Made by a program: the position numbers and the translations under genes
The notes under the pieces: model-generated
What the model was told of the DNA's origin: nothing
Databases searched by the model: none
What the model saw: the letters and a program-made list of their open reading frames with translations, nothing else
DNA from: Bacteroidales bacterium
Lineage (GTDB): Bacteria > Bacteroidota > Bacteroidia > Bacteroidales > UBA932
NCBI GenBank assembly: GCA_017625725.1
Contig: JAGAKH010000050.1
Coordinates: 1-37,054, forward strand
Direction: 5' to 3'
Length of the DNA: 37,054 nt
Shown: piece by piece, positions 3,321 through 26,340 of the stretch
How positions within the stretch are numbered: position 1 is the first letter of the stretch
Layout: the number at the start of each line of letters is the position of its first letter

Positions 3321-3335
3321 ATATACACGAATGTG

Positions 3336-5869: not shown

Positions 5870-5901
5870 AACTACACTTTCGTGTTTTTCAGTATTTGCA
5901 A

Positions 5902-5909: not shown

Positions 5910-5957
5910 AGAAAAATTGTTGAGTTTAAGGTGTTTTGCTATTATTTAAGCTTAAAG

Positions 5958-5988: not shown

Positions 5989-5993
5989 TAAAA

Positions 5994-6248
5994 ATGAATG
6001 ACATGAAAACAACATCGGTAGCTCTTGGCCCATATTTCGAGGATTTCGTAAAGACTCAGGTCGCAAATGGAAGGTATAACAATGCGAGTGAAGTAATCAG
6101 AGCCGGACTTCGTCTTCTTGAAGATGATGAGAGCCGCATAATTGCATTAAAGGCTGCGATCCAGGAAGGAATTGAAAGTGGCGAAGCAGAGAATTTTGAC
6201 CCGCAGGCGCATATCAAATCACTAAAAGCCTCTTTAAGAAATGCCTAA
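5994..6248 (+). CDS. parD: ParD-family type II antitoxin
   Basis: An antitoxin of 84 residues (81 if the ATG at 6003 is used). The N-terminal part, TTSVALGPYFEDFVKTQV, followed by GRYNNASEVIRAGLRLLEDDE, is the ribbon-helix-helix fold of CC2985/ParD-type antitoxins: a beta strand, then two helices that dimerise and bind DNA. The acidic, flexible C-terminus (EGIESGEAENFDPQAHIKSL) would wrap the toxin. A longer reading frame from 5931 is unlikely because the promoter and operator lie within 5958-5988. It overlaps the toxin gene by 8 bases, typical of translational coupling. Confidence 0.9.
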   Translation: MNDMKTTSVALGPYFEDFVKTQVANGRYNNASEVIRAGLRLLEDDESRIIALKAAIQEGIESGEAENFDPQAHIKSLKASLRNA

Positions 6249-6649: not shown

Positions 6650-6653
6650 GTAG

Positions 6654-6727
6654 TGACTCCGACAGGATTCAAACCTGTAACCTTCTGATCCGTAGTCAGA
6701 TGCTCTATTCAGTTGAGCTACGGAGCC
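6654..6727 (-). tRNA. tRNA-Arg (anticodon ACG)
   Basis: The minus strand folds as a full cloverleaf. The acceptor arms are GGCTCCG and CGGAGTC (one G-T pair), the D arm is GCTC...GAGC, the anticodon arm is TCTGA-CTACGGA-TCAGA with anticodon ACG, and the T arm is ACAGG-TTTGAAT-CCTGT. The discriminator base is A and CCA is not encoded. ACG (modified to ICG) reads CGU, CGC and CGA arginine codons. It lies 19 bases downstream of rplS and is probably on the same transcript. Confidence 0.97.
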
Positions 6728-10734: not shown

Positions 10735-10766
10735 TTTTATCTGTGGTTATTGGTTATTCCGTTTCA

Positions 10767-10792
10767 GGCATATGATGCCAGATGCAAAATTA
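10767..10792 (-). promoter_or_regulatory. Candidate promoter and operator of the MFS transporter gene
   Basis: On the minus strand TAATTTTG (10785-10792) fits the -7 pattern. Immediately downstream, at the expected start of transcription, is the inverted repeat ggcat-atg-atgcc (10767-10779), a plausible repressor site for the divergent LacI-family protein. No good -33 box is visible. Confidence 0.4.
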
Positions 10793-10887
10793 TGAATTAT
10801 TTCCGAAAATCCGTGTGCGGGCACGGTAAAAAGGCTGTATTAACAGATTTTTTTATCATATTTGTATGTCTTAATTATAATGAAAAT

Positions 10888-11949
10888 ATGAAAGCCGAGA
10901 TCAGCAAAGTCACTATCAACGATGTCGCGAAGGCGGCTGGGGTTTCCAAGGGAACTGTTGACCGTGTGATCCACAACAGGGGAGAGGTGTCCCGTAAAAG
11001 CCGAGAAAAGGTCCTTCGCGTCATAGATGAACTTGGCTTCAAGCCTAACCTCTATGCGTCTCTTCTGGCTTCCCAGAAGGAAAGGACCATCTGCTGCATC
11101 ATACCGGAATGCCGCCCTGGGGAATTCTGGTCCATGACCCGGAAAGGTATTCAGGATGCTGCGGCGGTTGTTTCGAGATATGGGGTGAAGGTGGTATGTG
11201 CAGGATTTGACCAATATAGTGTGGATTCGTTCAGAATGGCTTGTGATTCAGTGGTTTCCATGAATCCTTCGGGCGTGCTTGTCGCTCCGATGTTCCGGGA
11301 CGAGACTATGAGGCTTGCTGATTCTCTCTCATCTTCCGGCATACCTTTCATGTTCCTGGATTCCAAGATCGATGATGCCGGCTATCTTGCTTATTTCGGA
11401 ATGCCTATGTATGAAAGCGGATATCTCTGCGCTGACATACTCACCGGCGGTCGCAATATTCCGCATAAGGTATATGTGGTACGCATATCACGCGACAAGA
11501 CAGGCCTGTCGGATCCGACTGCTGCGCGAAGGGCTGGCTTCATGGACTTCATGGCAAGACATTATCCTGAAACACAGATAGAGAATGTGTTCATAGACCC
11601 TAAGGATGCAGCATCCATTCACGAAAGGCTGGATGCTACCGTCGGCAGGGAAAAGGACGGACGCTTCGTCGTGATGTTCAATTCCAGGATACATCTTGTG
11701 GCGGATTATCTGTCTGTCAAGGGATTTCATGACTGCCGTGTCGTAGGTTTCGATGCTCTTGAACGTAATGTCGCCGCCCTTAAGGATGGTACTGTATATG
11801 CCCTGATAGCTCAGCATACCGATCGTCAGGCTCTTGATGCCGTCAATGTCATGACCGATCATCTGCTTTTAGGTTCTCCAATCGCAAAGAGGGATAATTT
11901 CATACAGATGGACATCCTGAACCGTTACAATTGCGACTATTATCTATAG
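10888..11949 (+). CDS. LacI-family transcriptional regulator
   Basis: A 353-residue regulator. The N-terminal helix-turn-helix with hinge helix is clear: VTINDVAKAAGVSKGTVDRV, IHNRGEVSRKSREKVLRVID, ELGFKPNLYASLLAS. The remainder is a periplasmic-binding-protein-like ligand domain (CCIIPECRPGEFW, GVLVAPMFRDETM, GIPFMFLDSKID, VVGFDALERNVAALKDGTVYALI). I place the start at 10888 because a long in-frame upstream extension overlaps the divergent gene and is not regulator-like. A near match to the -7 box (catatttg, 10857-10864) precedes it. It lies between a sugar-acid-type transporter and the phosphoester/SusCD operon and could control either. Confidence 0.93.
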   Translation: MKAEISKVTINDVAKAAGVSKGTVDRVIHNRGEVSRKSREKVLRVIDELGFKPNLYASLLASQKERTICCIIPECRPGEFWSMTRKGIQDAAAVVSRYGVKVVCAGFDQYSVDSFRMACDSVVSMNPSGVLVAPMFRDETMRLADSLSSSGIPFMFLDSKIDDAGYLAYFGMPMYESGYLCADILTGGRNIPHKVYVVRISRDKTGLSDPTAARRAGFMDFMARHYPETQIENVFIDPKDAASIHERLDATVGREKDGRFVVMFNSRIHLVADYLSVKGFHDCRVVGFDALERNVAALKDGTVYALIAQHTDRQALDAVNVMTDHLLLGSPIAKRDNFIQMDILNRYNCDYYL

Positions 11950-12068: not shown

Positions 12069-13448
12069 ATGGCAAAATTCTTTGATCCGCCTCAGGCGAA
12101 GCCTCTTCTTCCGAAGGAGAAGATCGACAGCGTTTACAAGTCCATGAGATTCAAGGTCTTCATGGGTTCGTTCATCGGCTATGCCGCATATTATCTGGTC
12201 CGCAAGAACCTTTCACTGGCTTCAGCCGACATGATCGCGGAAGGCCTCATCGACAAGCAGGGAGTCGGTATCGCGGCTTCTGCAGTTTCGATCGCCTATG
12301 CTTTCAGCAAGTTCGGCATGGGTATGCTTTCAGACCGTTCGGATGCGAGGAAGTTCCTCACGATAGGTCTTGTCATCGCATCTCTCGTGATGATGTCCGT
12401 AGGCTTCCTTCCTTTCTCGGCTACAAATATGGCCCTGAATGTGGCGATGCTGTTCGTCATCATGCTTTTCGTGGGTGTCCTTTCCGGAATGGGATGGCCT
12501 CCTTGCGGGCGAATGATGGCATATTGGTTCTCGAACAATGAACGAAGCTTCAAGATGTCTCTCTGGAACACTTCGCATACCATCGGTGCCGGTACTCTCG
12601 GAATCATCGCCATCTTCGGTGTCGGCCTCTTTGCCGATATGGGCATTGCACAGCCTTGGAGGGCCAATTTCATTGCTCCTTCTGTAGTCGCCCTTGTTCT
12701 GGCTGCTTTCTGCTGGTGGGCATTGAGAGATACACCTGAGTCATGCGGTCTTCCATCTGTGGCAGACTGGAGAAATGACCATTCAGGCGTGAAGACCAAG
12801 GAAAAAGTAGGCGAGAAGGTTCCTTTCAAGACCCAGCTCGTTGATTATGTCCTCAAGAACAAGTGGATCTGGTTCATCGCTCTGGCGAATGCATTCGTGT
12901 ATATGGTAAGATACGGTGTCGGTGACTGGGCTCCTACATATCTCCAGGAAACAGGCATCATGACAGGTGCAGAGAGTAAGCTCGCATTCTCTATCCACAA
13001 TTATGTCGGAGCTGTCGGAACAATCGTTTGCGGATGGATCTCCGCCAAGTTCTTCAAGGGCAAATGTGCTCCTCCTAACATCATCTTCATGAGTCTCGTG
13101 CTCGTCGGCTGTCTCATCTACTGGCAGGTGCCTGCACTCGCGGCCGCTACGGGAATCTCAGCAAAGGTATGGGTATATGTGGCCCTCATCCTCATCGGAT
13201 TCTGCATTTACGGCCCTGTGGCCCTCGTCAGTATCCAGGCTCTCAATCTCGTTCCTAAGAATGCAGCCGGTACTGCAGCCGGCTTCGTAGGCCTTTCAGG
13301 TTACCTCATCGGTGACTCGCTCCTTTCAAAGATCATCGTCGGCGGTATCGCAGACAAGAGCTGGGACATGGCAAACTTCACAATGGTGATCGGTGCTGCA
13401 CTCGGTATCCTTCTTTGCGTAATGACTCTGAAGTCGGAAAAGAACTGA
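12069..13448 (+). CDS. glpT: GlpT-type glycerol-3-phosphate:phosphate antiporter
   Basis: An inner-membrane organophosphate:phosphate antiporter of 459 residues. Starting at the ATG at 12069, the substrate-binding residues known from E. coli GlpT fall in matching motifs: Arg45 in GYAAYYLVRKNLSLA, His170 in WNTSHTIGAG, and Arg281 in MVRYGVGDWAPTYL. These separate GlpT from ordinary sugar MFS carriers. UhpT and UhpC are relatives, but the motifs fit GlpT best. It is the first gene of a seven-gene operon and ends 8 bases before the phosphoesterase lipoprotein gene. Its presence indicates that the operon's end product is glycerol-3-phosphate. Confidence 0.92.
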   Translation: MAKFFDPPQAKPLLPKEKIDSVYKSMRFKVFMGSFIGYAAYYLVRKNLSLASADMIAEGLIDKQGVGIAASAVSIAYAFSKFGMGMLSDRSDARKFLTIGLVIASLVMMSVGFLPFSATNMALNVAMLFVIMLFVGVLSGMGWPPCGRMMAYWFSNNERSFKMSLWNTSHTIGAGTLGIIAIFGVGLFADMGIAQPWRANFIAPSVVALVLAAFCWWALRDTPESCGLPSVADWRNDHSGVKTKEKVGEKVPFKTQLVDYVLKNKWIWFIALANAFVYMVRYGVGDWAPTYLQETGIMTGAESKLAFSIHNYVGAVGTIVCGWISAKFFKGKCAPPNIIFMSLVLVGCLIYWQVPALAAATGISAKVWVYVALILIGFCIYGPVALVSIQALNLVPKNAAGTAAGFVGLSGYLIGDSLLSKIIVGGIADKSWDMANFTMVIGAALGILLCVMTLKSEKN

Positions 13449-13456
13449 TTGCTAAT

Positions 13457-15376
13457 ATGAAGAGAATCATTTCATTGCTGGCTGCAGCCGCAGCAATAGC
13501 TCTGGCAGTTTCGTGTGGCAAGGAGCCGGAACCTGATGTGGATGTTCCGGAAAAGCTTGATCTCATGATCAGTCTTCCGGCAGTAATTGACGGAGCTGCC
13601 GGTGATGTCATTTCAGTGAAGTATTATTCAGGAAAAGGCCCGAAATCAGGCGATTCTGTTGTCCTGAAGAAAGGCTCGTCTGAAATATCATGTGAAATCG
13701 TTTCCATCGACAGCGAATCATTCAGCTTCAAGATAGCATCGGAGGTGGAAACTGGAAAATATACATTCTGCATACGCAGAGGCGACCTAACTCAGGCTGT
13801 CAGGGATGTCCAGTTCAACATCGAGAAAAGAAGCGAGATACCTGAGAAGGAGGGCTTCAATATCTATGGACAGATCTCATGCGACGGTGCCGGTGTCCCT
13901 GGAGTTGTCGTTTCTGACGGAGTGGAGGTGACCGTAACCGACAATGACGGAGTGTATTACCTTAAGTCCAAGGAATACAACAGAGTGGTGTTCATGTCGG
14001 TTCCAAGCGGTTATGAAGCTGAAACGTCAGGAGTGCTTCCGAAATTCCACAAGGTACTTGACGGAAATGCGGCTACGACAGAGAGGGCGGACTGGAACCT
14101 CGTGAAGGTTGAGAATCAGAACCATATCATGTATGTCCTTGGTGACATGCATCTTGCAAACAGGACTAATGACCTCAATCAGTTCGCCAACTTCACTGCC
14201 GATCTTGGCGCTCTTGTCTCATCGAACAAGATGAAGAAGCAGTATGCTCTGACATTGGGAGACATGACGTGGGATCTTTACTGGTATGACAACGCGTATG
14301 ACCTCAATTCATATGTCGAGACGATGAATTCAAGTATTACGGGACTTCAGATATTCCATACCATAGGAAATCATGACCATGACATGCTTTCTGCCGGAGA
14401 CTTCAATACGGTTTCCGCATATAAGAAGACCGTAGCTCCTACCTATTACTCCTTTAATATTGGCGATGTGCATTATGTCGTTCTTGACAATATCCTCTGT
14501 ACGAATGATGGAACCGGAAACAGGACATATGATTCAAGCCTTACGATAGATCAGATCGACTGGCTGAGGAAGGATCTTTCATATGTTGATAAGTCCAAGG
14601 CTCTTGTGATAACCATGCATGCTCAGATGTATGACGAGAAGGGAAAGGCTTCGATGGCTTTCGCTTCAGAGCTGGAGGAACTTTGCAACGGATATGAGAC
14701 CCATGTGATCAGCGCACATACCCATGTCGTATGGAACAACGACAAGACAGCGGAAAACGGAATATATCATCATAACAGCGGTGCAATCTGTGCTACATGG
14801 TGGTGGACCGGATATTATACTTCCGGACTCGGACTTTGCAAGGACGGTTCTCCAGCCGGATATTATGTATATGAAATGACAGGATCCGATGTCAAATGGA
14901 GGTTCAAGCCTACAGACAAGGATTTCAGCCATATGTTCCGTACGTATGACAGGAATGAGATCGTTCTTTCAGCGGCTGGGTTTGCACCGAATGCCGATTC
15001 CGGACATGCATCTTCATTCGAAAAGACAGCGTCCCATTGGGTATCGGGCAGCACTGACAATTATGTGTATATCAATGTGTTTGATTATGATCCTTCGTGG
15101 AAGATAGAGGTGACGGAGAATGGAAAGAGCCTTCCTTATGAGGTGGTAAAGGTCAAGGATCCTCTTCATCTTGTGGCGTATGAGGCCAAGAGATATAATG
15201 AAAACAAGACTCCGACCTCAAGCTTCAATGCCTATACCGTGAATTCGCATATATTCAGGGTACAGGCTTCTTCTGCCACATCCACCCTTGAAATAAAGGT
15301 GACCGACAGGTTCGGAAACTCTGCTTCGGAGAGCATGAAGCGCCCTAAGGCTTTCTCTCTTCAGGCATACAGATAA
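13457..15376 (+). CDS. Lipoprotein calcineurin-like metallophosphoesterase
   Basis: A 639-residue secreted phosphoesterase anchored by a lipid; the lipobox is LAVSC (Cys20). Residues 36-123 look like an Ig/TIG-type domain, 134-215 match the MetallophosN type (IYGQISCDGAGVPGVVVSDG), and about 223-430 form the metallophosphatase core. A C-terminal MetallophosC-like domain follows. Metal ligands are in place: Asp230 and His232 (LGDMHLA), Asp269 (LGDMTWD), Asn305-His306 (GNHDHD), His388 (ITMHAQM), His421 and His423 (SAHTHV). I choose the ATG at 13457 since it opens directly into the signal peptide. It would hydrolyse phosphate mono- or diesters at the cell surface or in the periplasm. A second protein with the same core lies at the operon's end. 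Confidence 0.9.
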   Translation: MKRIISLLAAAAAIALAVSCGKEPEPDVDVPEKLDLMISLPAVIDGAAGDVISVKYYSGKGPKSGDSVVLKKGSSEISCEIVSIDSESFSFKIASEVETGKYTFCIRRGDLTQAVRDVQFNIEKRSEIPEKEGFNIYGQISCDGAGVPGVVVSDGVEVTVTDNDGVYYLKSKEYNRVVFMSVPSGYEAETSGVLPKFHKVLDGNAATTERADWNLVKVENQNHIMYVLGDMHLANRTNDLNQFANFTADLGALVSSNKMKKQYALTLGDMTWDLYWYDNAYDLNSYVETMNSSITGLQIFHTIGNHDHDMLSAGDFNTVSAYKKTVAPTYYSFNIGDVHYVVLDNILCTNDGTGNRTYDSSLTIDQIDWLRKDLSYVDKSKALVITMHAQMYDEKGKASMAFASELEELCNGYETHVISAHTHVVWNNDKTAENGIYHHNSGAICATWWWTGYYTSGLGLCKDGSPAGYYVYEMTGSDVKWRFKPTDKDFSHMFRTYDRNEIVLSAAGFAPNADSGHASSFEKTASHWVSGSTDNYVYINVFDYDPSWKIEVTENGKSLPYEVVKVKDPLHLVAYEAKRYNENKTPTSSFNAYTVNSHIFRVQASSATSTLEIKVTDRFGNSASESMKRPKAFSLQAYR

Positions 15377-15417
15377 GATCTTACAACTATTAACAATACT
15401 AACTAATCATTAAGTTT

Positions 15418-18400
15418 ATGAGATTACTTAAATCTTTCGCTGCTTCTCTGGCTTTTCTGCTTGCAGGCTTCAGTGCCTTTGCGCAGAACAGAGAACTGTC
15501 CGGTGTCGTACTGGACGCGACTGACTTCCCGCTCATCGGCGTGGCTGTCATCGTTGACGGAACGACAAACGGAGTCATGACAGCAGATGACGGAACGTTC
15601 ACATTGACCGTACCGGCTACTGAAGTCATTCTTAATGTGTCGTCACTTGGTTACGAGACCAAGCTTGTTACAGTGCCTGCGACACAGGACAAGGTTACAA
15701 TCTATCTCGCAGAAGACAACATGATGATCGAAGAGACCGTCGTTGTCGGCTACGGTACTCAGAAGAAGGTCAACCTCACCGGTGCTGTGGGTGTGGTTGA
15801 CAGCAAGCAGCTCGAGGACAGAACATCGCATAACCTCAGTGCAATGCTTCAGGGTTCTGTTCCAGGCCTTAATATTTCGACATCAAGCGGTAATCCCGGC
15901 AGCTCCGGAAGCCTCAATATCCGTGGTATCGGATCTATCGGTTCAGGTGCCGACACTACTCCTCTCGTGCTCATCGACGGCGTCGAGGGTGAGATCGACC
16001 GTGTCAATCCTGCCGACGTTGAGTCTATCTCAGTCATCAAGGATGCTTCTGCGGCAGCTGTTTATGGTGCCCGTGGTGCTTTCGGTGTGATCCTCATCAC
16101 TACGAAGAAGGGTTCTGACAATGAAGGAAAGGCTACAGTACGTTACAGCGGCCGTTTCGGATGGGAAGAGCCTACTACATCGACCGATTACGAGACAACT
16201 GGTTATTGGTCTGCATTCATCCACAACATGTTCTGGAAGGCTGATAACGCCAACTCGAAGTATATCCAATATACTGACTATGACATGCAGCAGCTCCTTC
16301 TCCGTATCAACGACAAGACAGAGCATCCTGACCGTCCATGGACAGTGATCGAGAACAGAAACGGAAAGGATACCTATATGTATTATGCGAATACAGACTG
16401 GTGGCATGAGCTTTTCGTTGACCGTCATCCTGTACAGCAGCATCAGATATCCCTCAGCGGCGGATCAAAGGCTGTGAAGTTCTATCTCTCGGGAGCTTTC
16501 GACCAGCAGACCGGTATCGTGAAGAAGAATCCTGACGTGTTCACAAAGTACAATCTCCGTTCGAAGATCGACTTCAAGATCAACAAGTATGCGAAGATGA
16601 CCAACAATACGTCATTCTACAGCTCTACATATGATTATCCGGGCGTAGGAAACGTCGAGAATGCAATCGCATATGCCGCTAACCACGGTCTTGCATGTTT
16701 CCCTCTCCAGAACCCTGACGGATCATGGATCTATTCGACTCCGCACCTCAACTACAAGGTTGCCAACGGACGTCATATCGTTTATGGAAACGGTTACAAC
16801 ACAAACCTTGACAGGAAAACCGATTTCTCTAATACAACCGAGCTCACAATCACTCCTGTAAAGCAGTTCAACATCGTAGGTAACTTCACTTACAGATTCC
16901 ACCAGAACCGCAACACAAACAGATCTACCAATATGGTATATTCTGATTATCCAGGCCAGTTCGGTGCTTATACGACAGGTGCAGGTGACAACAATCTCTA
17001 TGAGACAGTTCAGACCATGAATTACCTTGCTGCAAACGTATTTGCAACATATGAGGATTCGTTCAAGGAGAACCACAACCTCAAGGTAATGGCCGGTTTC
17101 AATTATGAGTCATATTACAGAAAGGCCATCGATGCTACAGGTTACGACCTCATCACCGACGAGCTTTCAGACTTCAACCTCATCACTACCACAAGACAGC
17201 CTGTCCTCGGCGGTGGTCAGACAATCTATGCTCTTGCCGGATTCTTCGGCCGTATCAACTACGACTACAAGGGCAGATATCTTCTCGAGGTTTCAGGACG
17301 TTACGACGGTACTTCACGCTTTGCCGAGGGACATCGTTTCGGATTCTTCCCTTCGGCTTCTGCCGGATGGCGTATCTCTGAGGAGAACTGGTTCGCTCCA
17401 GCAAAGGACGTTGTCAACAACCTCAAGCTCCGTGCATCATTCGGTAGCCTCGGTAACCAGAAGGTGACCAACAATGCATGGATGAGAAAGATCACGTTCG
17501 ACAACTTCGCCGCTTATTCGTTTGACGGTTCTGCAATGGGACGATATGCTACCATTTCTGCTCCTAATGCATCAGACCTTACTTGGGAGACATCGACACA
17601 GTACAATGCAGGTATTGATGCAGGAATGTTCAATGACAAGCTCATGTTCACTGTCGAGGGCTTCATCCGTGATACCAAGGGCATGCTCCAGCAGGGTGTC
17701 GCTCTTCCAGGCGTATATGGCGCTAACTCTCCTCTCATGAACAGTGCAGACCTCCGTACATCAGGTTACGAGCTTTCGTTCAGCTGGAGAGATCAGCTTG
17801 ATCTCGGCGGCAGACCGTTCGGCTACAGCATTTCTGCAAACCTTTCCGACAACAGGACCATCATCACCAAGTATGACAACCCTGAGAGGACATTCGCAAA
17901 GGATTACTATGAGGGTATGGAGCTTGGCGAGATCTGGGGATTCGTTACTGACGGTCTTTTCCAGAGCGATGCAGAAGCTCAGGCATATGCACAGCAGGTT
18001 GATCTCAGCTACATCACAAAGCGTCTGACAGGTGGATGGCTTGCCGGTGACCTCAAGTATGTCGATATCGACGGTGACGGTAAGATCGGCCTCGGTTCAG
18101 ATACAGTTGACAAACCTGGTGACAGAAAGATTCTCGGAAACACCAATGCTACTCTTCAGTATGGCTTCACTCTCGCTTTCGACTACCTCGGATTCGATGT
18201 TTCGGCATTCTTCCAGGGAACAGGTAACCATTACTGGTATCCTAATGGCGAGTCAATGGCATTCTGGGGACCTTATTCACGTCCTTACTGCTCGTTCATA
18301 GCAGATGACTTCCTTGATCATGTATGGGCTGAGGATAACACAGACGCATATTTCCCACGTCCACGTGCTTATTCTGCATACACTTCAGGTGCATACCTTG

Positions 18401-18690
18401 CCAATGTGAATGACAGATATCTCCAGAATATCAGATATCTCAGATTCAAGAACCTTACAGTGGGTTATACCGTACCTCAGAACGCGACAAGAAAGATCGG
18501 TATCGAGAAGGTGCGCGTTTACTTCTCTGGTGAGAACCTTGCTTACTGGTCTCCATTCAAGCAGCACAGCAAGTACATCGATCCTGAGGCTGCATTTGAC
18601 AGAAAGAGCGGCGGAAGCCTTACACGTTACAACAACGCATTCTATCCATGGCAGAAGACCATGATGTTCGGTGTTGACATCACATTCTAG
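15418..18690 (+). CDS. SusC-like TonB-dependent outer-membrane transporter
   Basis: A 1090-residue outer-membrane barrel that imports oligomers using TonB energy. The signal peptide ends AFAQ at about residue 22. A carboxypeptidase-like regulatory domain spans about 27-100 (LSGVVLDATDFPLIGVAVIV). The SusC-type motif TVVVGYGTQKKVNLTGAV, containing the TonB box region, precedes the plug (NIRGIGSIG, PLVLIDGVEGEIDRVNPADV, SVIKDASAAAVYGARGAFGV). The 22-strand barrel follows and ends in the aromatic signature MMFGVDITF. It pairs with the SusD protein 23 bases downstream. The neighbours are phosphoesterases, so the cargo is likely a phosphorylated oligomer rather than a plain glycan. Confidence 0.96.
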   Translation: MRLLKSFAASLAFLLAGFSAFAQNRELSGVVLDATDFPLIGVAVIVDGTTNGVMTADDGTFTLTVPATEVILNVSSLGYETKLVTVPATQDKVTIYLAEDNMMIEETVVVGYGTQKKVNLTGAVGVVDSKQLEDRTSHNLSAMLQGSVPGLNISTSSGNPGSSGSLNIRGIGSIGSGADTTPLVLIDGVEGEIDRVNPADVESISVIKDASAAAVYGARGAFGVILITTKKGSDNEGKATVRYSGRFGWEEPTTSTDYETTGYWSAFIHNMFWKADNANSKYIQYTDYDMQQLLLRINDKTEHPDRPWTVIENRNGKDTYMYYANTDWWHELFVDRHPVQQHQISLSGGSKAVKFYLSGAFDQQTGIVKKNPDVFTKYNLRSKIDFKINKYAKMTNNTSFYSSTYDYPGVGNVENAIAYAANHGLACFPLQNPDGSWIYSTPHLNYKVANGRHIVYGNGYNTNLDRKTDFSNTTELTITPVKQFNIVGNFTYRFHQNRNTNRSTNMVYSDYPGQFGAYTTGAGDNNLYETVQTMNYLAANVFATYEDSFKENHNLKVMAGFNYESYYRKAIDATGYDLITDELSDFNLITTTRQPVLGGGQTIYALAGFFGRINYDYKGRYLLEVSGRYDGTSRFAEGHRFGFFPSASAGWRISEENWFAPAKDVVNNLKLRASFGSLGNQKVTNNAWMRKITFDNFAAYSFDGSAMGRYATISAPNASDLTWETSTQYNAGIDAGMFNDKLMFTVEGFIRDTKGMLQQGVALPGVYGANSPLMNSADLRTSGYELSFSWRDQLDLGGRPFGYSISANLSDNRTIITKYDNPERTFAKDYYEGMELGEIWGFVTDGLFQSDAEAQAYAQQVDLSYITKRLTGGWLAGDLKYVDIDGDGKIGLGSDTVDKPGDRKILGNTNATLQYGFTLAFDYLGFDVSAFFQGTGNHYWYPNGESMAFWGPYSRPYCSFIADDFLDHVWAEDNTDAYFPRPRAYSAYTSGAYLANVNDRYLQNIRYLRFKNLTVGYTVPQNATRKIGIEKVRVYFSGENLAYWSPFKQHSKYIDPEAAFDRKSGGSLTRYNNAFYPWQKTMMFGVDITF

Positions 18691-18713
18691 TCAAGTTGAA
18701 TCATTAAAGAATT

Positions 18714-20525
18714 ATGAAGATGAAAAAATATTTGATAATGATAGCTGCTGCAGCTCTCGCCTTCGCTTCTTGTGACATGCTTGACAAGGAGCCGTTGTCA
18801 GAGATGTCTCCGGAGTCTTATTTCAAGACTGAGCAGGATCTCCAGCTTTTCTCAAACACATTCTATAACAACCTTCTTCCTAAGTCGCCTTACGGCTACC
18901 AGAGCGATCATTATGTAAAGCAGACTATGTCTGACGAGCTTCATGGCGGTTCTTACCGTATCGTTCCTAACTCAGGCAGCGGCTGGTCATGGGGAGACCT
19001 CAGGAAGATGAACACTCTCCTCGGCTATATCGACAATTGCGAGGACGAGAAGGCAGTAACCGAATATACAGCTCTCACAAAGTTCTTCAGGGCTTTCTTC
19101 TATTACGAGAAGGTGAAGAGATTCGGTGACGTTCCATGGATCGATAAGGAACTCGGATCTGCTGACGAGGCTCTCTGGAACCCAAGAGACAACCGTGAGG
19201 TAGTCATGCAGCACATGCTCGAGGATATCAACTATGCCATCGAGAACCTTCCTGCACCTACCACACAGTTCCGTGTGAACAAATATACTGCACTTGCACT
19301 CAAGGCTCAGTTCTGTCTCTTCGAGGGTACTTTCAGAAAGTATCATGCAGGTGAGTCAACACTCAAGACCCTTCCTGCTGATGCAAAGGACTACAGGTTC
19401 TATCTCAAGGAAGCTGCTGATGCCGCTAAGCAGATCATGGACAGCGGAAAGTACTCGCTCTATTCTACAGGAAAGCCTGAGCAGGATTACCGCGACATGT
19501 TCGTGCTTGAGGACAGTGATTCGAACAAGGAGTTCATCCTTTCCATCAAGTGTGATTACGGTCTCGCCATCTTCCACAACGGTACTGCATACGGTCTTCT
19601 CCCGTCACAGGGACGTATCGGTGCTACAAGGAAGTTCATCGACAGCTACCTCATGAAGGACGGTTCACGCTTCACAGACAAGGCAGGCTGGGAGTCAATG
19701 GAGTTCGCTGCTCAGGTGGCTGACCGTGACCCTCGTCTCGCACAGTCTTTCCGTACTCCTGGCTATACCAGAATCGACGGAACCGACATCCTTGCACCGG
19801 ATCTTTCTTCAAGCTGTACAGGATATCAGACAATCAAGTGGGTGATGTCATGCAAGGCTAACGGCGGTGACTCTGACCGTGTTGACCGTTCAACAAGCGA
19901 CCTTCCTGTATATCGTCTCGGCGAAATCCTCCTCATCTATGCAGAGGCAAAGGCCGAACTCGGAGAGCTTACCCAGGAGGATCTCAACAACTCGATCAAC
20001 CTTCTCCGCAAGAGGGTAGGAATGCCGAGCCTTACACTTGGTGTGACTGCTGACCCATATCTCACAAATCCATCATACGGATATACCAACCCTAAGCTTC
20101 TTGCTGATCCTAACCTTGCGATCATCCTCGAGATCCGTCGTGAGAGAGCCATCGAGCTCGCACAGGAGGGCAACAACCGCTGGTATGACATCGTACGCTG
20201 GAGAGAGGGCAAGAGCGTTGACCAGCCTTTCTATGGCCTTTATTTCCCAGGTCCTGGCGAATATGACATCAATGGTGACGGCAAGCTTGACTACTGCCTC
20301 TATGAAGGTGACGTGAAGCCGGATTCAAAGGCGACATCTGTCCTCAAGATCGGTTCGGAGATTCTTCTCAGCAACGGAACAAGCGGATATGTAGAGCCTC
20401 ACAAGGGTGAGACACATACATTCAATGAGAACAGAGACTACTATTATCCGATCCCAAGCGACGAGCGTTCTCTCAACCCTAACCTTACCCAGAACGATGG
20501 TTGGGACGATGGTCTTGATTTCTAA
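18714..20525 (+). CDS. SusD-like surface nutrient-binding lipoprotein
   Basis: A 603-residue lipoprotein that caps SusC and captures the substrate. The lipobox is FASC (Cys20). Typical SusD text follows: DKEPLSEMSPESYFKTEQDL near the N-terminus, tetratricopeptide-like helices (AKFFRAFFYYEKVKRFGDVP-type, here TALTKFFRAFFYYEKVKRFG), YRLGEILLIYAEAKAELGEL, LEIRRERAIELAQEGNRWYD-like sequence with one extra Asn, and a C-terminal YYYPIPSDERSLNPNLTQN. Two Met codons (residues 1 and 3) are possible starts. It belongs with the SusC gene immediately upstream. Confidence 0.95.
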   Translation: MKMKKYLIMIAAAALAFASCDMLDKEPLSEMSPESYFKTEQDLQLFSNTFYNNLLPKSPYGYQSDHYVKQTMSDELHGGSYRIVPNSGSGWSWGDLRKMNTLLGYIDNCEDEKAVTEYTALTKFFRAFFYYEKVKRFGDVPWIDKELGSADEALWNPRDNREVVMQHMLEDINYAIENLPAPTTQFRVNKYTALALKAQFCLFEGTFRKYHAGESTLKTLPADAKDYRFYLKEAADAAKQIMDSGKYSLYSTGKPEQDYRDMFVLEDSDSNKEFILSIKCDYGLAIFHNGTAYGLLPSQGRIGATRKFIDSYLMKDGSRFTDKAGWESMEFAAQVADRDPRLAQSFRTPGYTRIDGTDILAPDLSSSCTGYQTIKWVMSCKANGGDSDRVDRSTSDLPVYRLGEILLIYAEAKAELGELTQEDLNNSINLLRKRVGMPSLTLGVTADPYLTNPSYGYTNPKLLADPNLAIILEIRRERAIELAQEGNNRWYDIVRWREGKSVDQPFYGLYFPGPGEYDINGDGKLDYCLYEGDVKPDSKATSVLKIGSEILLSNGTSGYVEPHKGETHTFNENRDYYYPIPSDERSLNPNLTQNDGWDDGLDF

Positions 20526-20547
20526 CAATTAAACTATAGATGAGATT

Positions 20548-22812
20548 ATGAGATTTATTAAGAATCTATATATATCAGCCTTAGCTGCAGTAGCCGGTGT
20601 TCTCGCGTTTACCGGCTGCCAGCCTGAGGAATCTCCGCTTTCAAGAGCTATCATGACCAGTGTTTCAGGTCTTGAGTTCGACGCTCTGAATGCTGAGCCG
20701 CAGACCATTACGGTTTATGCGGATGCTGACTGGACCGTTGAGGCTCCTGAGTGGATTACCGTTGACAGGACTTCAGGCAGCCGTACTATGGATGTCACCA
20801 TTTCCGTGGCAGACAACATGCGTGACGGTGCAATGGACAACCCGAAGAAGGATACTGTCATTTTCAGAGGATATAACCTTCTTTCAAATGCATATGTGAT
20901 TGTAAGCCAGGGTGGTGACAAATACAGGGATGTGCCTCCTGTAATCATTCCGGAAGTGTACGCCATGAAGGATGAGGAAGTTGTCATCCTTGATCACGTC
21001 GCAGTCGTGGCTGTTTCTGCAAACGGCTTCGTCGTGAATGACGGAAACGAAAGCATATATGTAGCAAGCAAGGAAGACCTTGTAATCGGTGACGGAGTTC
21101 ATGTAAGAGGTTCAAAGGGAACACTCAATGACATTCCTGCGATCACTGTATGCGACCTTGTGGAGAAGAAGGGCGACAATCGTGCTCCTGCATATCCTCT
21201 CATCAAGGACATCACTCCTGCTCTCGATGCATATGCACCATCAAAGATGGAATATGTAGAACTTACAGGTTCTCTTGACGGCATGAATGTGGCTGTCGAG
21301 GGTGCTGTAAGAGTTGGAGCGATCCTCGATCCAGCAGCTGAATTTGATCTTGCTGCCATCAACGGTCACAATGTCACTGTCAGAGGTTTCAGTTTCGGTG
21401 CTACAGTTTCTGTCGTGAACATCATCGTGACTGAAATCGTTGACCTCGGTGTTAACGAAATCATCTACTTCACTGATAACTTCGACTGGTTCGCTGACAT
21501 CGCTTCTGCAGAGGGAGCAGGTGATGCTGTAGGTACAGATGATCCTGGTACAACCGCTCCTAACGTATGGAAGATGGGTTCAAGCGCAGACTTCTTTGCA
21601 AAATTCAATGAGATCGGCTACCAGTATCTTTATGGTACTGTAGGTTCTACAGAGTTCGTGGCAGGTCCGGCTCAGGAACCTAATTCGAAGGTAGGCAAGG
21701 ACGGTTCGCTTTATATCCAGTCCAACTATCTCAAGTTCGGCCAGACCAGCTACAGTGGAGCTCTCGTTCTTCCTGCACTTTCTGCAATTCAGGGTGCAGC
21801 GAACATCCAGATCGAGTTCGACTGGTGCTGGCAGGTGACAGGTGCATACAAGCCTGACATCATGACTCTCTCAGTTGACGCTACGGCCGGTGCATTCGCT
21901 GACAGCGGATCGTCAACAAGCAACGAAATCGAGTCAGCTCAGTCACAGGTTGACGGAGACAGCCATATCCAGTGGCAGCATGTAGTGCTCGTTCTCAACG
22001 GAGCTACTCCTGAGACAGTACTTACCATCAGACCGACAAATGCCGACCCTACAGTACAGAATCCTGCAAGAAAGCAGAACCGCTGGTATCTTGACAACAT
22101 CAAGATCATCGACGCTGGCGGTGCTCCTGTAACTCCACCAGCAGGCGGAGCCAAGACCGTTTATTCTGATGATTTCGAATGGATCGCTCCAATGGCAACA
22201 ACCGAGGGAGCAGGTGACGCTGTAGGTACAGATGATCCAGGTACTACTGCTCCTAATGTATGGAAGATGGGCACAAGCGCTGATTTCTTTGCTAAGTTCA
22301 ACGAGATCGGCTACCAGTATAAGTATTCTACTATCGGTTCTACCGAATTTGTAGCAGGTCCTGCACAGGAACCAAAGTCAGATGTCGGCAAGGAAGGCTC
22401 ACTCTATATCCAGTCCAACTATCTCAAGTTCGGTCAGACCAGCTACAGCGGTGCTCTTGTACTTCCTGCTCTCTCTGCAATCGAGGGTACTGCAAACGTA
22501 TGCATCGAGTTTGACTGGTGCTGGCAGGTTACAGGTGCGTACAAGCCTGACCTCATGACTCTTTCAGTTGATGCAAGCGTAGGCCAGTTCCCTGATTCAG
22601 GTGCTCCTACAAGCGTGGCTCTTGAGTCTGCACAGTCAACTGTCGATGGAGAAAGCCATATCGCATGGCAGCACGTGTCCATCGTTCTCAACGATGCGAC
22701 AGCTGAGACAGTCCTCACTATCAGGCCTACAAACCCTGATCCGACTGTCCAGAACTCAAGAAAGCAGAACCGCTGGTATCTTGACAATATCAAGATCGTT
22801 ACTGTAGAGTAA
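20548..22812 (+). CDS. Surface glycan/substrate-binding-type lipoprotein with duplicated C-terminal domain
   Basis: A 754-residue lipoprotein (lipobox FTGC, Cys24) in the SusE/F position. Residues 36-121 resemble a BACON domain (VYADADWTVEAPEWITVDR). About 135-205 and 208-298 look like OB-type beta domains (FVVNDGNESIYV, VHVRGSKGT), as in DUF5689-type proteins. Residues 308-521 and 539-751 are two copies of the same 213-residue domain. The copies share long identities (GAGDAVGTDDPGTTAPNVWK; SLYIQSNYLKFGQTSYSGAL; QNRWYLDNIKI) and are separated by a Pro/Gly-rich linker. The fold is probably a jelly-roll binding module. No catalytic motif is visible. It likely binds the substrate on the surface for the SusCD pair; the ligand is unknown. 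Confidence 0.85.
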   Translation: MRFIKNLYISALAAVAGVLAFTGCQPEESPLSRAIMTSVSGLEFDALNAEPQTITVYADADWTVEAPEWITVDRTSGSRTMDVTISVADNMRDGAMDNPKKDTVIFRGYNLLSNAYVIVSQGGDKYRDVPPVIIPEVYAMKDEEVVILDHVAVVAVSANGFVVNDGNESIYVASKEDLVIGDGVHVRGSKGTLNDIPAITVCDLVEKKGDNRAPAYPLIKDITPALDAYAPSKMEYVELTGSLDGMNVAVEGAVRVGAILDPAAEFDLAAINGHNVTVRGFSFGATVSVVNIIVTEIVDLGVNEIIYFTDNFDWFADIASAEGAGDAVGTDDPGTTAPNVWKMGSSADFFAKFNEIGYQYLYGTVGSTEFVAGPAQEPNSKVGKDGSLYIQSNYLKFGQTSYSGALVLPALSAIQGAANIQIEFDWCWQVTGAYKPDIMTLSVDATAGAFADSGSSTSNEIESAQSQVDGDSHIQWQHVVLVLNGATPETVLTIRPTNADPTVQNPARKQNRWYLDNIKIIDAGGAPVTPPAGGAKTVYSDDFEWIAPMATTEGAGDAVGTDDPGTTAPNVWKMGTSADFFAKFNEIGYQYKYSTIGSTEFVAGPAQEPKSDVGKEGSLYIQSNYLKFGQTSYSGALVLPALSAIEGTANVCIEFDWCWQVTGAYKPDLMTLSVDASVGQFPDSGAPTSVALESAQSTVDGESHIAWQHVSIVLNDATAETVLTIRPTNPDPTVQNSRKQNRWYLDNIKIVTVE
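21469..22800 (+). repeat. Internal tandem duplication of a ~640-bp domain
   Basis: 21469-22110 and 22162-22800 encode the two near-identical domains. In a hand comparison of the first part of each copy, most base differences fall at third codon positions, so the duplication is not recent and the protein sequence has been kept. Confidence 0.9.
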
Positions 22813-22833
22813 CAACAGGTTCCTATATATGAG

Positions 22834-22863
22834 AAAGCCGGTGCAGATCTCTGCATCGGCTTT
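22834..22863 (+). terminator. Strong intra-operon hairpin
   Basis: aaagccggtgcaga (22834-22847) pairs with tctgcatcggcttt (22850-22863) at 13 of 14 positions, followed by only a short T run. It lies between the surface lipoprotein gene and the MBL hydrolase gene. It may act as a partial terminator or as an RNA stabiliser that keeps upstream SusCD expression higher than that of the downstream enzymes. Confidence 0.6.
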
Positions 22864-22883
22864 AACAGATAAGATATGATCTT

Positions 22884-24098
22884 ATGAAGAAGTTACTTTC
22901 ATTTTTTGCTGCACTGGCAGTCTCTTTCAGCATTGCTTCAGCCCAGGAATACCTCCCGAAATGGCAGGAGGGATATATGGATATCCATACAATCGCTACG
23001 GGAAGGGGAGATGCAACCTTTATCGTGATGCCTGACGGTACAACCCTCATGATCGATGCCGGAGACAACGGCAAGCTCAAGGATCCCCAGCATCCCGATA
23101 CCACCAGAAGGGCAGGTGAGTGGCAGGCCATATATATGAAGAAGGTCATGGAAGACCTTCCTGACAGGAACAAGGTGGATTATGCGATGATCACCCATTT
23201 CCACGATGACCATATGGGAGCTGTACGTCAGATGCTTCCCGGAAGCAATGGCTACGGTCTTTCTGGCATTACGCTGGTAGGTGAATTCGTGGATTTCGGC
23301 ACTTTGATCGACAGGGCATATCCGGATTATGATTTCCCTTCAAAGAAGAACGTGAACAATGCCAACAAGGGCTTCATGCCTGAGTATCACAAGTTCGTGG
23401 AGCATAAGATGGCTCATGGAATGAAGATGGAGAAATTCGATGTCGGCGCATTGAACCAGATCAAGATGCTCAACAATCCTAAGAAGTACAGGAAGAATTT
23501 CGAGATCCGCAACCTTGCTGCCAACGGCGAAGTCTGGACCGGAAAGGGCGAGGATGCCGAAAAGCAGTACAAGGGAGATCCGAAGCTTTTTGACGAGAAT
23601 GTGAACTCTTGTGCGATCCGTATAACATACGGCAATTTCAAGTATTACAACGGAGGAGATCTCAGCGGTGGAAACTGGGACATATATAAATCGAAGGAAA
23701 GGGACATGGAGACCCCTGTAGCCAAGGTCTGCGGCAAGGTGGATGTCATAAAGGCAAATCATCATGGCTATTACGACACCTGCAACGGCTTCTTCATGAA
23801 TACTCTTTCACCTGATGTTGTCATCATCGATGCGCGAAGCAACAATCATCCTGTACCTTCTACTATGGCCAGAATGACTGATCCGCTCGTATGGACAGAA
23901 CAGGGCGAATTCTATATTACCGTTGACAAGGCGCGCGAAAAGCTCAGCGAAGAGCTCTGGAGCCATTTCAAGCCTTGGGGCCATATTGTCGTGAGGGTAT
24001 ATGATGGCGGTAAGGAGTATCAGGTGTTCGTCCTCGACGCAGATACTACCGATTATCCGATAATATACAAGTCTGATATCAAGACAGCAGGAAAATAA
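22884..24098 (+). CDS. Secreted metallo-beta-lactamase-fold hydrolase (ComEC-type MBL domain)
   Basis: A 404-residue exported enzyme with a cleavable signal peptide (cleavage near ASAQ, residue 21) and no lipobox. The MBL metal motif HFHDDH is at residues 105-110. The usual Asp lies in YYNGGDLSGG (Asp259), and a terminal His pair is in KANHHGYYDT (293-294). The pattern DGTTLMIDAGDNG plus NHHG is that of MBL domains related to the ComEC tail. Such domains hydrolyse phosphodiesters or nucleic acids; pneumococcal phosphorylcholine esterase also has an MBL fold. In this operon a phosphodiesterase role is reasonable but not proved. The distance of 10 bases to the next gene indicates co-transcription. 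Confidence 0.88.
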   Translation: MKKLLSFFAALAVSFSIASAQEYLPKWQEGYMDIHTIATGRGDATFIVMPDGTTLMIDAGDNGKLKDPQHPDTTRRAGEWQAIYMKKVMEDLPDRNKVDYAMITHFHDDHMGAVRQMLPGSNGYGLSGITLVGEFVDFGTLIDRAYPDYDFPSKKNVNNANKGFMPEYHKFVEHKMAHGMKMEKFDVGALNQIKMLNNPKKYRKNFEIRNLAANGEVWTGKGEDAEKQYKGDPKLFDENVNSCAIRITYGNFKYYNGGDLSGGNWDIYKSKERDMETPVAKVCGKVDVIKANHHGYYDTCNGFFMNTLSPDVVIIDARSNNHPVPSTMARMTDPLVWTEQGEFYITVDKAREKLSEELWSHFKPWGHIVVRVYDGGKEYQVFVLDADTTDYPIIYKSDIKTAGK

Positions 24099-24108
24099 AC
24101 TATAAGAT

Positions 24109-26340
24109 ATGAAGAAGATATTTGCCATAGCAATGGCGTTCATGATGTTCGGCGGCATCGCCGAAGCCAGGAAGGTGTCCGGCAGCGTGGTCTCCGGTGA
24201 GGAAAAGCTCGCTGGTGTCATCGTTACTGACGGAAAGAATTTCACAACTACAAAGAAGAACGGCAAGTTCTCTTTCGAGATCAAGGATGATGCGGAATTC
24301 GTTTACATTGTGACTCCGTCAGGCTATGTGGCTGACTGGAGCACAGGCGTACCGGCTTTCTATCAGGAGGCTGCAGGTCGTGACAGGTTCGTATTCGATC
24401 TTCAGAAGACAGATGCATCCGGTGACTACTCGATTGTGGCCATTGCCGATCCACAGACACGTGACGAGAAGCAGTTCGCCAAGTTCGCAGACGAGCCGAT
24501 GGCAGATCTCTGCGAGACAGTCACGACTCTGACAGGGGCTTCAGTGGGCCTTGCTCTTGGTGATATCTGCTGGGATTCTCTTGAGCTTCTGGAAAGCTAC
24601 AGGAAGGAGATCGTCCGCACTGGAATCCCTTTCTATCCTGTGGTCGGCAATCATGACCATGAGCTCGAAGCTCAGGGTGATATACAGACTACAGCAGCAT
24701 ACAGGAAGGTCATGGGCCCCGAGAATTATGCCTTCTGTCTTGGCAAGGACGTGGTGATCGTTCTCGATAACATCATATATGACACTCAGAAGAAATATCA
24801 GGAAGGATATGCTTCTCATGTGATTTCATGGGTGAAAGGTCTGGAGGCTCTTCTTCCTGAAGGCGCATCCCTTTATATCGCTCAGCATTCTCCTGTGAAA
24901 TACTGGGAGAACGGACGCAAGATTATCGGTGCATCCGATCTTATCGATATCGTGCGTGGACGCAACGTCACCTTCATTTCGGGTCATACTCATGTGAATA
25001 ACAACCTTGAGTACGAGAAGAACATAACTGAGCATAATGTGGCTGCAATTTGCGGTTCATGGTGGGATACAGACCATTGCACAGACGGCACTCCAAGAGG
25101 ATACAAGGTGTTTACTATGAAGGACGGCAGACTCAGCTGGTACTACAAGTCTGTAGGACATGACAAGGACCATCAGGTGGAGCTTTACAAGCCAGGGCAG
25201 ACTCTTCAGCATCCGAACAGCGTCGTGGTGAACGTATGGGACTGGGATCCGGCGTGGAAGGTGGAATGGTTCGAAGATGGAAAGCCGATGGGCTCTCTCA
25301 AGCCTGTGAAGGAATATTCACCTCTTTATATCCATGAAATCAATGAGGCTTTCGCCGGCAGGAAGATTCCGGGATATAAGCAGCCGAACATCAATTATCA
25401 TTATTTCGCAGCGACTCCGAGCCAGTATGCGAAGAATGTGACCATATCCGTGGAGAGCCGTTTCGGAAAGAGATGGGTCTATAATGTGGATATGTCGGAA
25501 TATGTTGACGTGCAGGCCCATAGAGGAGGAGCCGGACTCATGCCGGAGAATACCATCGAGGCCATGAAACATGCTCTCGACATGGGTGTCAACACTCTTG
25601 AACTTGATCTTCAGATCAGCAAGGACGGTCTGGTGGTCGTATCTCATGATCCGTATTTCCACCATCGTTATGCCATCCGTCCGGACGGAAGCCATGTTCA
25701 GAAGGATGATCCTAAGGAGTATATCTATACCATGCCTTATAGTGAGGTCGCGAAATATGATGTAGGAAGCCGTCCGAGCGAGGTGTGGCCGGAGAAGGCT
25801 TGTGTCAAGACCGTGAAGCCTCTTGCGGATGATCTGATAGATTTCGTCGAGAACTATACGAAGGAAATGGGCTATTCTCCTGTAAGATACAATATCGAAA
25901 TCAAGTCTAAGGACGCTGCAGGCGAGGGACAGAACTGGCCGACTTATGACAGATTCGTTTCCGAGTGCTGCAAATTCCTTCATTCAAAGCATCTGGGAGA
26001 CAGGCTCGTGGTGCAGAGCTTCGACGTGAGGGCGTTGAACTACATGAATGAGAAATATCCGGAATTCATCCTTTCATATCTTGTCGATGCCAAGGCTCCG
26101 GATTTCGATACATATATGGCAATGTTGAAGTTCACTCCTCAGTGGCTCAGTCCTCATCATACAATCACTGATGAAGACCTTGTGAAGAAATGCCATGAAA
26201 AGGGTATGAAGATAGTTCCTTGGACTGTTGACGCACCGGAAGATATCAGGCGCATCCTCGATCTCAAGGTCGATGCCATCATTTCAAATTATCCTGACAG
26301 GGTTCTGGAACAGACCAGAGGATTCGTATATGCAAAGTAA
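24109..26340 (+). CDS. Secreted fusion: metallophosphoesterase plus glycerophosphodiester phosphodiesterase
   Basis: A 743-residue two-enzyme protein with a signal peptide (cleavage near AEA, residue 20). Residues 22-95 are MetallophosN-like, 105-345 the calcineurin-like core, and 355-460 MetallophosC-like. In the core the first metal motif is ADPQ (Asp114, Gln116 instead of His); then Asp152 (LGDICWD), Asn181-His182 (GNHDHE), His260 (AQHSPV), His293 and His295 (SGHTHV). Residues 468-740 are a GDPD domain with HRGG (471-474), PENT (479-482), Glu498 and Asp500 (ELDLQ) and His513 (SHDP), all catalytic positions of GDPD. GDPD splits glycerophosphodiesters to glycerol-3-phosphate and an alcohol, which the GlpT of the same operon can import. 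This is the last gene of the operon. Confidence 0.93.
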   Translation: MKKIFAIAMAFMMFGGIAEARKVSGSVVSGEEKLAGVIVTDGKNFTTTKKNGKFSFEIKDDAEFVYIVTPSGYVADWSTGVPAFYQEAAGRDRFVFDLQKTDASGDYSIVAIADPQTRDEKQFAKFADEPMADLCETVTTLTGASVGLALGDICWDSLELLESYRKEIVRTGIPFYPVVGNHDHELEAQGDIQTTAAYRKVMGPENYAFCLGKDVVIVLDNIIYDTQKKYQEGYASHVISWVKGLEALLPEGASLYIAQHSPVKYWENGRKIIGASDLIDIVRGRNVTFISGHTHVNNNLEYEKNITEHNVAAICGSWWDTDHCTDGTPRGYKVFTMKDGRLSWYYKSVGHDKDHQVELYKPGQTLQHPNSVVVNVWDWDPAWKVEWFEDGKPMGSLKPVKEYSPLYIHEINEAFAGRKIPGYKQPNINYHYFAATPSQYAKNVTISVESRFGKRWVYNVDMSEYVDVQAHRGGAGLMPENTIEAMKHALDMGVNTLELDLQISKDGLVVVSHDPYFHHRYAIRPDGSHVQKDDPKEYIYTMPYSEVAKYDVGSRPSEVWPEKACVKTVKPLADDLIDFVENYTKEMGYSPVRYNIEIKSKDAAGEGQNWPTYDRFVSECCKFLHSKHLGDRLVVQSFDVRALNYMNEKYPEFILSYLVDAKAPDFDTYMAMLKFTPQWLSPHHTITDEDLVKKCHEKGMKIVPWTVDAPEDIRRILDLKVDAIISNYPDRVLEQTRGFVYAK

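Follow-up and report, generated by a model that had tools for sequence, protein, structure and literature searches.

What would a SusC–SusD pair import when the genes beside it encode phosphoesterases and a GlpT-like antiporter? The question is raised by positions 12069-26340 of a 37,054-nucleotide stretch of DNA (contig JAGAKH010000050.1 of assembly GCA_017625725.1; the whole stretch is called the window below) from a metagenome-assembled genome (MAG) of a Bacteroidales bacterium in the UBA932 lineage. Our analysis suggests that this locus is probably an operon resembling a polysaccharide utilization locus (PUL), through which glycerophosphodiesters are taken up and catabolized by way of sn-glycerol-3-phosphate. 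The reading builds on direct observations, namely the gene content of the locus, its signals, its conserved motif residues, its conserved linkage, and the linkage of GlpT to dehydrogenase genes in relatives. In what follows, L numbers denote loci or stretches from relatives, G numbers denote sampled genomes (G000 being the genome of the window) and C numbers denote contigs of that genome.

Gene content and predicted functions of the locus

Seven genes occupy the locus, all on the + strand, and the intergenic gaps of 8, 41, 23, 22, 71 and 10 bases obtained from the open reading frames and chosen start codons exactly match the layout given in the first-pass annotation of this DNA. The first gene (12069..13448, +) encodes a GlpT-like organophosphate:phosphate antiporter of the major facilitator superfamily (MFS; MFS_1, 131.5 bits), an inner membrane protein predicted to import sn-glycerol-3-phosphate. 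It is followed by MPE1 (13457..15376, +), a calcineurin-like phosphoesterase (MPE) with a lipoprotein signal, in which PF16371 (MetallophosN), PF00149 (Metallophos) and PF16370 (MetallophosC) are all over cut-off. Next come a SusC-type TonB-dependent outer membrane transporter (15418..18690, +; TIGR04056 884 bits, cut-off 368, with TIGR04057 also over cut-off) and a SusD/RagB-type surface lipoprotein (18714..20525, +; PF07980 (SusD_RagB) 157 bits, cut-off 23.1; lipobox FASC). A putative surface binding lipoprotein (20548..22812, +; lipobox FTGC) carries a repeated choice-of-anchor-J-like region, with domain matches that stay below threshold (BACON 20.5 bits, cut-off 25; choice_anch_J 25.7, cut-off 30). 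The last two genes encode a hydrolase of the metallo-beta-lactamase (MBL) fold with a Sec-type signal (22884..24098, +; PF00753 (Lactamase_B) 25.9 bits, cut-off 22.7) and a predicted periplasmic phosphoesterase-GDPD fusion (24109..26340, +; PF16371, PF00149, PF16370 and PF03009 over cut-off), the GDPD domain of which spans 25519..26298 (+; PF03009, residues 471-730, 132.8 bits, cut-off 23.6).

No glycoside hydrolase, lyase or sulfatase domain was found in the seven proteins with Pfam at E <= 0.001, and the earlier statement that glycoside hydrolases, polysaccharide lyases and sulfatases are missing holds for these proteins at that threshold. Adjacent susC and susD genes, as in a PUL, are present; since the seven proteins have no domain of a carbohydrate-active enzyme (CAZyme), the locus was not classed as a glycan PUL. 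By eye and by a simple pattern, a lipobox was recognized in MPE1, SusD and the surface protein, a signal peptide in SusC, and Sec-type signals without a lipobox in the MBL protein and the fusion. These predicted signals would fit the layout of a PUL. Promoter- and terminator-like sites at the locus are about as numerous as in shuffled sequence.

A route through the cell envelope can be proposed from these genes, with each enzyme activity predicted from sequence. The surface lipoprotein MPE1 would cleave an external substrate, the fragments would be bound by the surface lipoprotein and SusD, and SusC would import them. Removal of substituents or cleavage of internal diesters would then fall to two predicted periplasmic enzymes, the MBL protein and the MPE part of the fusion, and the GDPD part would free glycerol-3-phosphate from fragment ends; sn-glycerol-3-phosphate is the expected product because GDPD and GlpT occur together. 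The GlpT-like antiporter would carry it into the cytoplasm, with phosphate exchanged out, and GlpABC, the anaerobic glycerol-3-phosphate dehydrogenase, would oxidise it.

The individual proteins are consistent with these roles to differing degrees. The best NCBIfam model for the GlpT-like protein is TIGR00712 (glpT), at 446 bits against an equivalog cut-off of 632.55, and the protein is called GlpT-like because this model scores best yet remains under its cut-off; from the linkage to glpABC and glpD-like genes described below, we infer that it performs glycerol-3-phosphate:phosphate antiport. All 19 MPE1 sequences, the window included, retain the residues of the metal motif, and 18/19 retain the lipobox cysteine. 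A search of the MPE1 profile against the PDB returned purple acid phosphatases (E about 1e-8 to 1e-5), which indicates no more than a shared fold, and we propose that MPE1 is an endo-acting phosphodiesterase with a predicted position at the cell surface. The HxHxDH metal motif of the MBL protein (23196-23213) is invariant in all 11 aligned MBL proteins, and the best solved relative in a profile search is pneumococcal Pce/CbpE (PDB 1wra, E 2.7e-8), with the HxHxDH stretch aligned; removal of phospho-substituents is the activity that we propose for it.

The best PDB relative of the fusion is 3ch0, aligned over the GDPD part (E 6e-56). The GDPD residues H471, R472, E498, D500 and H513, which we take to be catalytic, are conserved in 67-70 of the 71 fusions, that of the window among them, and losses are confined to four fusions (L114, L120, L128 and L134). 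As a separate observation, no SusD match was found in the stretches of these four. Residues 114-116 of the MPE domain (24448-24456) read DxQ in 71/71 fusions, whereas the first metal motif of MPE1 reads DxH, and the metal site in this half of the fusion may differ from that of MPE1.

Linkage in relatives and to glycerol-3-phosphate metabolism

A scan of contigs for relatives yielded 79 loci, drawn from the best 80 of 181 relatives, and 70 of these have a fusion match of more than 600 aa. Within 12 kb, these 70 fusion loci carry SusC in 38 cases, SusD in 37, the surface protein in 42 and MPE1 in 27, along with GlpT in 11, MBL in 11, GH31 in six and a GlpD-like protein in two; two of the 11 GlpT rows (L096 and L105) are 30-32% identical and lie on the other strand. 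GlpT is undercounted in this tally because the flanks end at 10 kb, and the window GlpT itself sits more than 10 kb from the fusion. In a whole-genome search covering 50 of the 70 fusion loci, GlpT at E <= 1e-60 was present in 46/50 fusion-bearing genomes, and in 22 of the 50 it shares contig and strand with the fusion and precedes it by no more than 17 kb. In eight of these 22, GlpT falls inside the locus DNA (L092, L093, L097, L103, L129, L131, L133 and L136); further linked cases, for which contigs were identified by their length, are L072 (on the G024 contig), L070, L071, L075, L076, L077, L079, L080, L083, L091, L101, L102, L104 and L117, the last with the SusCD-MPE1 block inverted between GlpT and the fusion. 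The order GlpT-MPE1-SusC-SusD recurs in 14 of 20 stretches examined, often beside grpE-dnaJ, and SusC and SusD are both present in 26 of the 35 loci with more than 9.5 kb on both flanks. The first-pass annotation would have yielded had the linkage been found in this genome only, and the 22 linked genomes refute that restriction. The gene set recurs in many genomes, and the arrangement is beyond chance. Nearly all relatives that carry a name are MAGs of Bacteroidales or Bacteroidia, many of them with ruminant or horse gut sites in their titles and three named Candidatus Cryptobacteroides; a goat rectum MAG (L070) carries a fusion 99% identical to that of the window. Only Gaoshiqia sediminis A06 (L130) is titled as a strain and not as a MAG or an uncultured isolate; its locus reads SusC-SusD-BACON protein-MPE1-fusion.

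The strongest new evidence comes from the genes that join the locus in relatives, which point to glycerol-3-phosphate metabolism. L193 and L201 share the order glpA-glpB-glpC-GlpT-MPE1-SusC-SusD, and in L206 glpA-glpB-glpC stands directly before GlpT, with SusCD not directly after it. The GlpA, GlpB and GlpC proteins of L193 are over their hidden Markov model (HMM) cut-offs, and their counterparts in L201 and L206 are 73-90% identical to them. Among 61 relatives sampled, G008, G015, G019, G032 and G036 have glpA ahead of GlpT in the same orientation, at a distance of no more than about 4 kb, and a GDPD gene precedes GlpT in G008, G015 and G036. Two loci titled Rikenellaceae (L129) and Prevotellaceae (L133) carry a glpD-like gene (above the Pfam cut-offs for DAO and DAO_C), GlpT, SusC, SusD and the fusion, in that order. 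In the genome of the window, glpA is on contig C89, and a search for DAO_C found no aerobic glpD there.

Across the class, GlpT at E <= 1e-40 was found in 13/395 sampled genomes, that of the window included. Ten other class genomes have GlpT at E <= 1e-90, and a GDPD-matching gene adjoins it in nine of them, the exception being G227; four of the nine GDPD genes are 39-44% identical and five 23-32% (by BLAST only, outside the HMM check). In four of the ten, the run of genes that includes GlpT also contains SusC and SusD. These four loci (L164-L167), all of one family code and from another order, carry SusC, SusD, GDPD and GlpT, with an MPE gene in three; a glpD-like gene stands beside this set in L164 and L166, and FGGY-kinase (glpK) and MIP-channel (glpF) genes occur in L164, L166 and L167, the L166 kinase being over the GlpK cut-off. 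The idea that glycerol-3-phosphate links GDPD to GlpT is thus borne out by glpABC, glpD-like or glpK/glpF genes joining the locus in relatives, and glycerophosphodiester uptake with catabolism via sn-glycerol-3-phosphate is well supported.

However, several observations weigh against this reading. The GlpT-like protein scores below its equivalog cut-off, and the glpD-like protein of L129 is under the NCBIfam glpD cut-offs. Close same-strand linkage of GlpT and the fusion was not seen in 28/50 genomes; four of the 50 (L090, L099, L114 and L130) have no GlpT at E <= 1e-60, GlpT lies 19 kb upstream in L105, 42 kb away in L116 and 16 kb away on the other strand in L118, and in 21/50 it is on a contig of another length than that of the fusion. 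Separate contigs in fragmented MAGs do not show that GlpT is unlinked, and in L078, L073 and L074 the other contig carries GlpT-MPE1-SusC and may be a broken-off part of the locus. Moreover, SusC or SusD was not found in 9/35 loci with long flanks, relatives of the GDPD domain are present in glycan loci whose stretches show no GlpT match, and the four fusions that have lost GDPD motif residues form one long-branched clade in the fusion tree. The four proteins of the surface route carry a net negative charge (-18 to -49), and a polyanionic ligand is not favoured by this. GlpT is present in 25 of 37 genus genomes, in 8/9 of those with a full-length fusion and in 17/28 of those without; because it is partly a genus trait, its presence in 46/50 fusion-bearing genomes is not independent evidence, and phyletic co-occurrence (46/50 at 1e-60 versus 13/395 class genomes at the laxer 1e-40) was set aside. 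Among the sampled class genomes besides that of the window, with two candidates scored per genome, no full-length fusion was found.

Candidate substrates and apparent exchange of the SusC–SusD pair

A decorated poly-glycerophosphate of the wall-teichoic-acid type comes close to an even chance as the substrate without quite reaching it, phospholipid-derived head groups are clearly less likely, and another glycerophosphate-bearing glycan is less likely again. The first-pass annotation had proposed glycerophosphodiester oligomers, either teichoic acid fragments or phospholipid head groups. Its general part stands, a teichoic-acid-like polymer is plausible and receives some support from the Pce-like MBL protein and from the GH31 of some related loci, and head groups are still a candidate. 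Depending on the locus, the slot before the fusion holds MBL, MBL with an extra MPE, GH31, other genes or nothing; the best solved relatives of the GH31 are named alpha-xylosidase (7wj9) and alpha-glucosidase or glucosyltransferase. In L197, the surface protein and the fusion are separated by two large proteins, neither of which matches a Pfam or NCBIfam model.

It is possible, if unlikely, that the locus scavenges phospholipids by taking up the glycerophosphocholine, -ethanolamine, -inositol and -glycerol that remain once lipases have acted on phospholipids of host, dietary or bacterial origin. GDPD enzymes are known to act on such glycerophosphodiester head groups. GDSL hydrolases are found in L133 and L164 (Pfam) and in L165 and L166 (BLAST), alpha/beta hydrolases in L103 and L197, and a PLD-like protein in L165. 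Eight of the 11 MBL-bearing loci name a gut site, all cecum, colon or rectum, which phosphocholine compounds from bile could reach. The GDSL and alpha/beta hydrolases and the hindgut titles of MBL-bearing MAGs suit phospholipids just as well. Contrarily, single head groups are porin-sized and would presumably make SusCD superfluous, GH31 (6/70 loci) has no obvious role on them, and the L133 GDSL protein has PDB relatives under the names of both lysophospholipase L1 and sialate O-acetylesterase, so that lipid deacylation is not implied. We regard it as improbable that phosphorus rather than glycerol is the prize and that the locus is a phosphate-starvation-induced gut counterpart of the phosphate utilisation systems (PUS) of Flavobacterium. 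GlpT-type antiport exports phosphate for each glycerol phosphate imported, a loss that sits poorly with phosphate scavenging, and the coupling to glpABC, glpD-like, glpK and glpF genes in relatives suits carbon and energy use. Nevertheless, PUS I is described as SusCD with two periplasmic phosphodiesterases, one of them annotated pf00149, a family also present at this locus (PMC8115612).

The locus might instead serve a phosphorylated glycan or a glycan-phosphodiester, with GDPD and the phosphoesterases merely stripping phosphate decorations, although we consider this quite improbable. Close GDPD domains from the same genus have as their fusion partner a GH97 alpha-galactosidase-like domain (L064) or an endonuclease/exonuclease/phosphatase domain (L066), and these stretches also carry GH95 or GH92 and alkaline phosphatase; yet both are different loci with no GlpT match in the stretch, and the window locus has GlpT and no CAZyme. 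That a glpT gene lies beside a SusCD operon with which it shares no function is hardly credible. GlpT and the fusion are indeed on separate contigs in 21/50 relatives and 19-42 kb apart in two, but GlpT-MPE1-SusC-SusD keeps the same order and strand in 14/20 stretches, often by grpE-dnaJ, and another arrangement of these genes recurs in another order.

The SusC–SusD pair appears to have a history of its own. In SusC and SusD trees of 12 MBL-bearing loci, the window, G024, L079 and L080 are united with 100% bootstrap support, whereas this group occurs in 0% of bootstrap trees for GlpT, MBL and the fusion and in 20% for MPE1, which is undecided. Well-supported branches contradict the group for MBL and the fusion, but the GlpT tree, which is less resolved, has none that do so. 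Judging from these trees, the SusC–SusD module seems to have moved between species apart from the remaining genes. The 70-row fusion tree, a quick tree with some long branches, implies at least eight switches between two SusD families across 38 typed loci (the SusD type of L074 being taken from another contig of the same genome), and SusCD pairs seem to have been repeatedly re-coupled to one enzyme core. This apparent recoupling offers a testable case of modular evolution in uptake loci.

Tentatively, and with more doubt than confidence, we suggest that gut Bacteroidales may partly live on Gram-positive walls, where SusCD would import decorated wall teichoic acid fragments and glycerol-3-phosphate would be burned, by means of a fixed core, exchangeable side-chain removers and swapped SusCD pairs. 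The core would then comprise GlpT, MPE1, SusCD and the MPE-GDPD fusion, and the slot before the fusion would take the Pce-like MBL, an extra MPE or GH31. If so, swaps of SusC and SusD between species would track the variable decoration of the prey polymer. With teichoic acid as the substrate, the locus would connect gut Bacteroidales nutritionally with Gram-positive bacteria.

Genome context and comparison with known systems

The MAG that contains the window is 79.7% complete and includes a further copy of the locus, orthologous to the first and divided between the ends of contigs C115 (L052) and C106 (L050). Because the flanks of this copy are homologous, with C106 flanking genes matching the window flank at 64-83% protein identity, the bin probably mixes two related species; a true two-copy genome is unlikely given these flanks and the single GlpT match in the 99%-identical relative L070. 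A LacI-type regulator (10888..11949, +; PF00356, PF13407) lies next to the locus and forms, with a divergent MFS transporter gene, the block at 9265-11949. We do not consider it the most likely regulator of the locus, since the MFS neighbour is present in all seven stretches with a LacI match (L187, L188, L194, L196, L198, L200 and L202) and no stretch of that set showed LacI without it. G024 has the MFS neighbour without a LacI match, and in L200 two genes separate LacI from MFS, one KDG-kinase-like and under the NCBIfam cut-offs, the other for a KDPG aldolase that exceeds its cut-off. The LacI gene is probably part of this neighbouring MFS/hexuronate block.

Elsewhere in the window, positions 1-6000 have a GC content of 0.38-0.41 against about 0.46-0.51 further on; they encode a C10 peptidase (Spi-type propeptide) and a DUF4988/BACON/collagen protein, with a tRNA-Arg nearby (6653-6727), and are a possible island. 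Among relatives, the GH97 alpha-galactosidase-like–GDPD fusion lies at L064:9147-11924 (G012), where GH95, GH2, alkaline phosphatase and phosphoesterases are also encoded, and the endonuclease/exonuclease/phosphatase-GDPD fusion at L066:8503-10230 (G033), accompanied by GH92, alkaline phosphatase and a ROK protein; the GDPD genes of L068 and L069 have the same length as the L066 fusion (575 aa). A different locus, L148:9028-19177, combines an NAGPA phosphodiester glycosidase, an MPE, SusC, SusD and an endonuclease/exonuclease/phosphatase protein.

In E. coli, glpTQ and glpABC supply GlpT, a glycerophosphodiesterase and an anaerobic dehydrogenase, a combination that the locus and its relatives resemble, although the E. 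coli genes come without SusCD, surface enzymes or a fusion. Pce/CbpE (1wra), the nearest solved sequence relative of the MBL protein, shares its MBL domain and metal motif at weak similarity (E 2.7e-8), but by Pfam the MBL protein has no choline-binding domain; it is not classed as a member, and phosphorylcholine release is a putative activity.

A functional analogy may be drawn with the teichoicases of B. subtilis (PMC7086022). GlpQ is exo-acting and sn-3 specific, is impeded by glycosylation and alanylation, and through this specificity acts on wall but not intact lipoteichoic acid, whereas PhoD, an endo-acting enzyme, cleaves wall teichoic acid that is glycosylated. An exo-acting glycerophosphodiesterase, an endo-acting phosphodiesterase partner and release of sn-glycerol-3-phosphate are likewise predicted for our locus, and the same logic would account for the accessory enzymes of these loci. 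GlpQ and PhoD serve turnover of the own wall in a Gram-positive bacterium (PMC7086022), unlike the window locus, which belongs to a Gram-negative one with SusCD import.

Of the described systems that we found, the Flavobacterium PUS (PusCD) comes nearest; it is a SusCD-like pair with phosphodiesterases that is induced by phosphate depletion (Lidbury et al. 2020, PMC8115612). The expectation that our locus would widen the substrate range of SusCD systems was therefore overstated. A SusCD-like pair co-localised with phosphoesterases rather than CAZymes is what we find in the window as well, together with the same predicted sequence of surface binding, outer membrane import and periplasmic hydrolysis, although related loci sometimes include a glycoside hydrolase (the GH31 of 6/70 fusion loci). 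Among the open-licence PMC papers listed in our literature searches, we saw none describing a SusCD locus with GlpT or glycerol-3-phosphate dehydrogenase, and none with teichoic acid or GDPD. The main text of PMC8115612 does not mention GlpT, GDPD or glycerol-3-phosphate, and it is here that our locus, with its GlpT and with glycerol-3-phosphate dehydrogenases in the loci of relatives, differs from PUS. SusCD import would here be coupled to the central catabolism of glycerol-3-phosphate and reach further than glycans and the rescue of phosphate.

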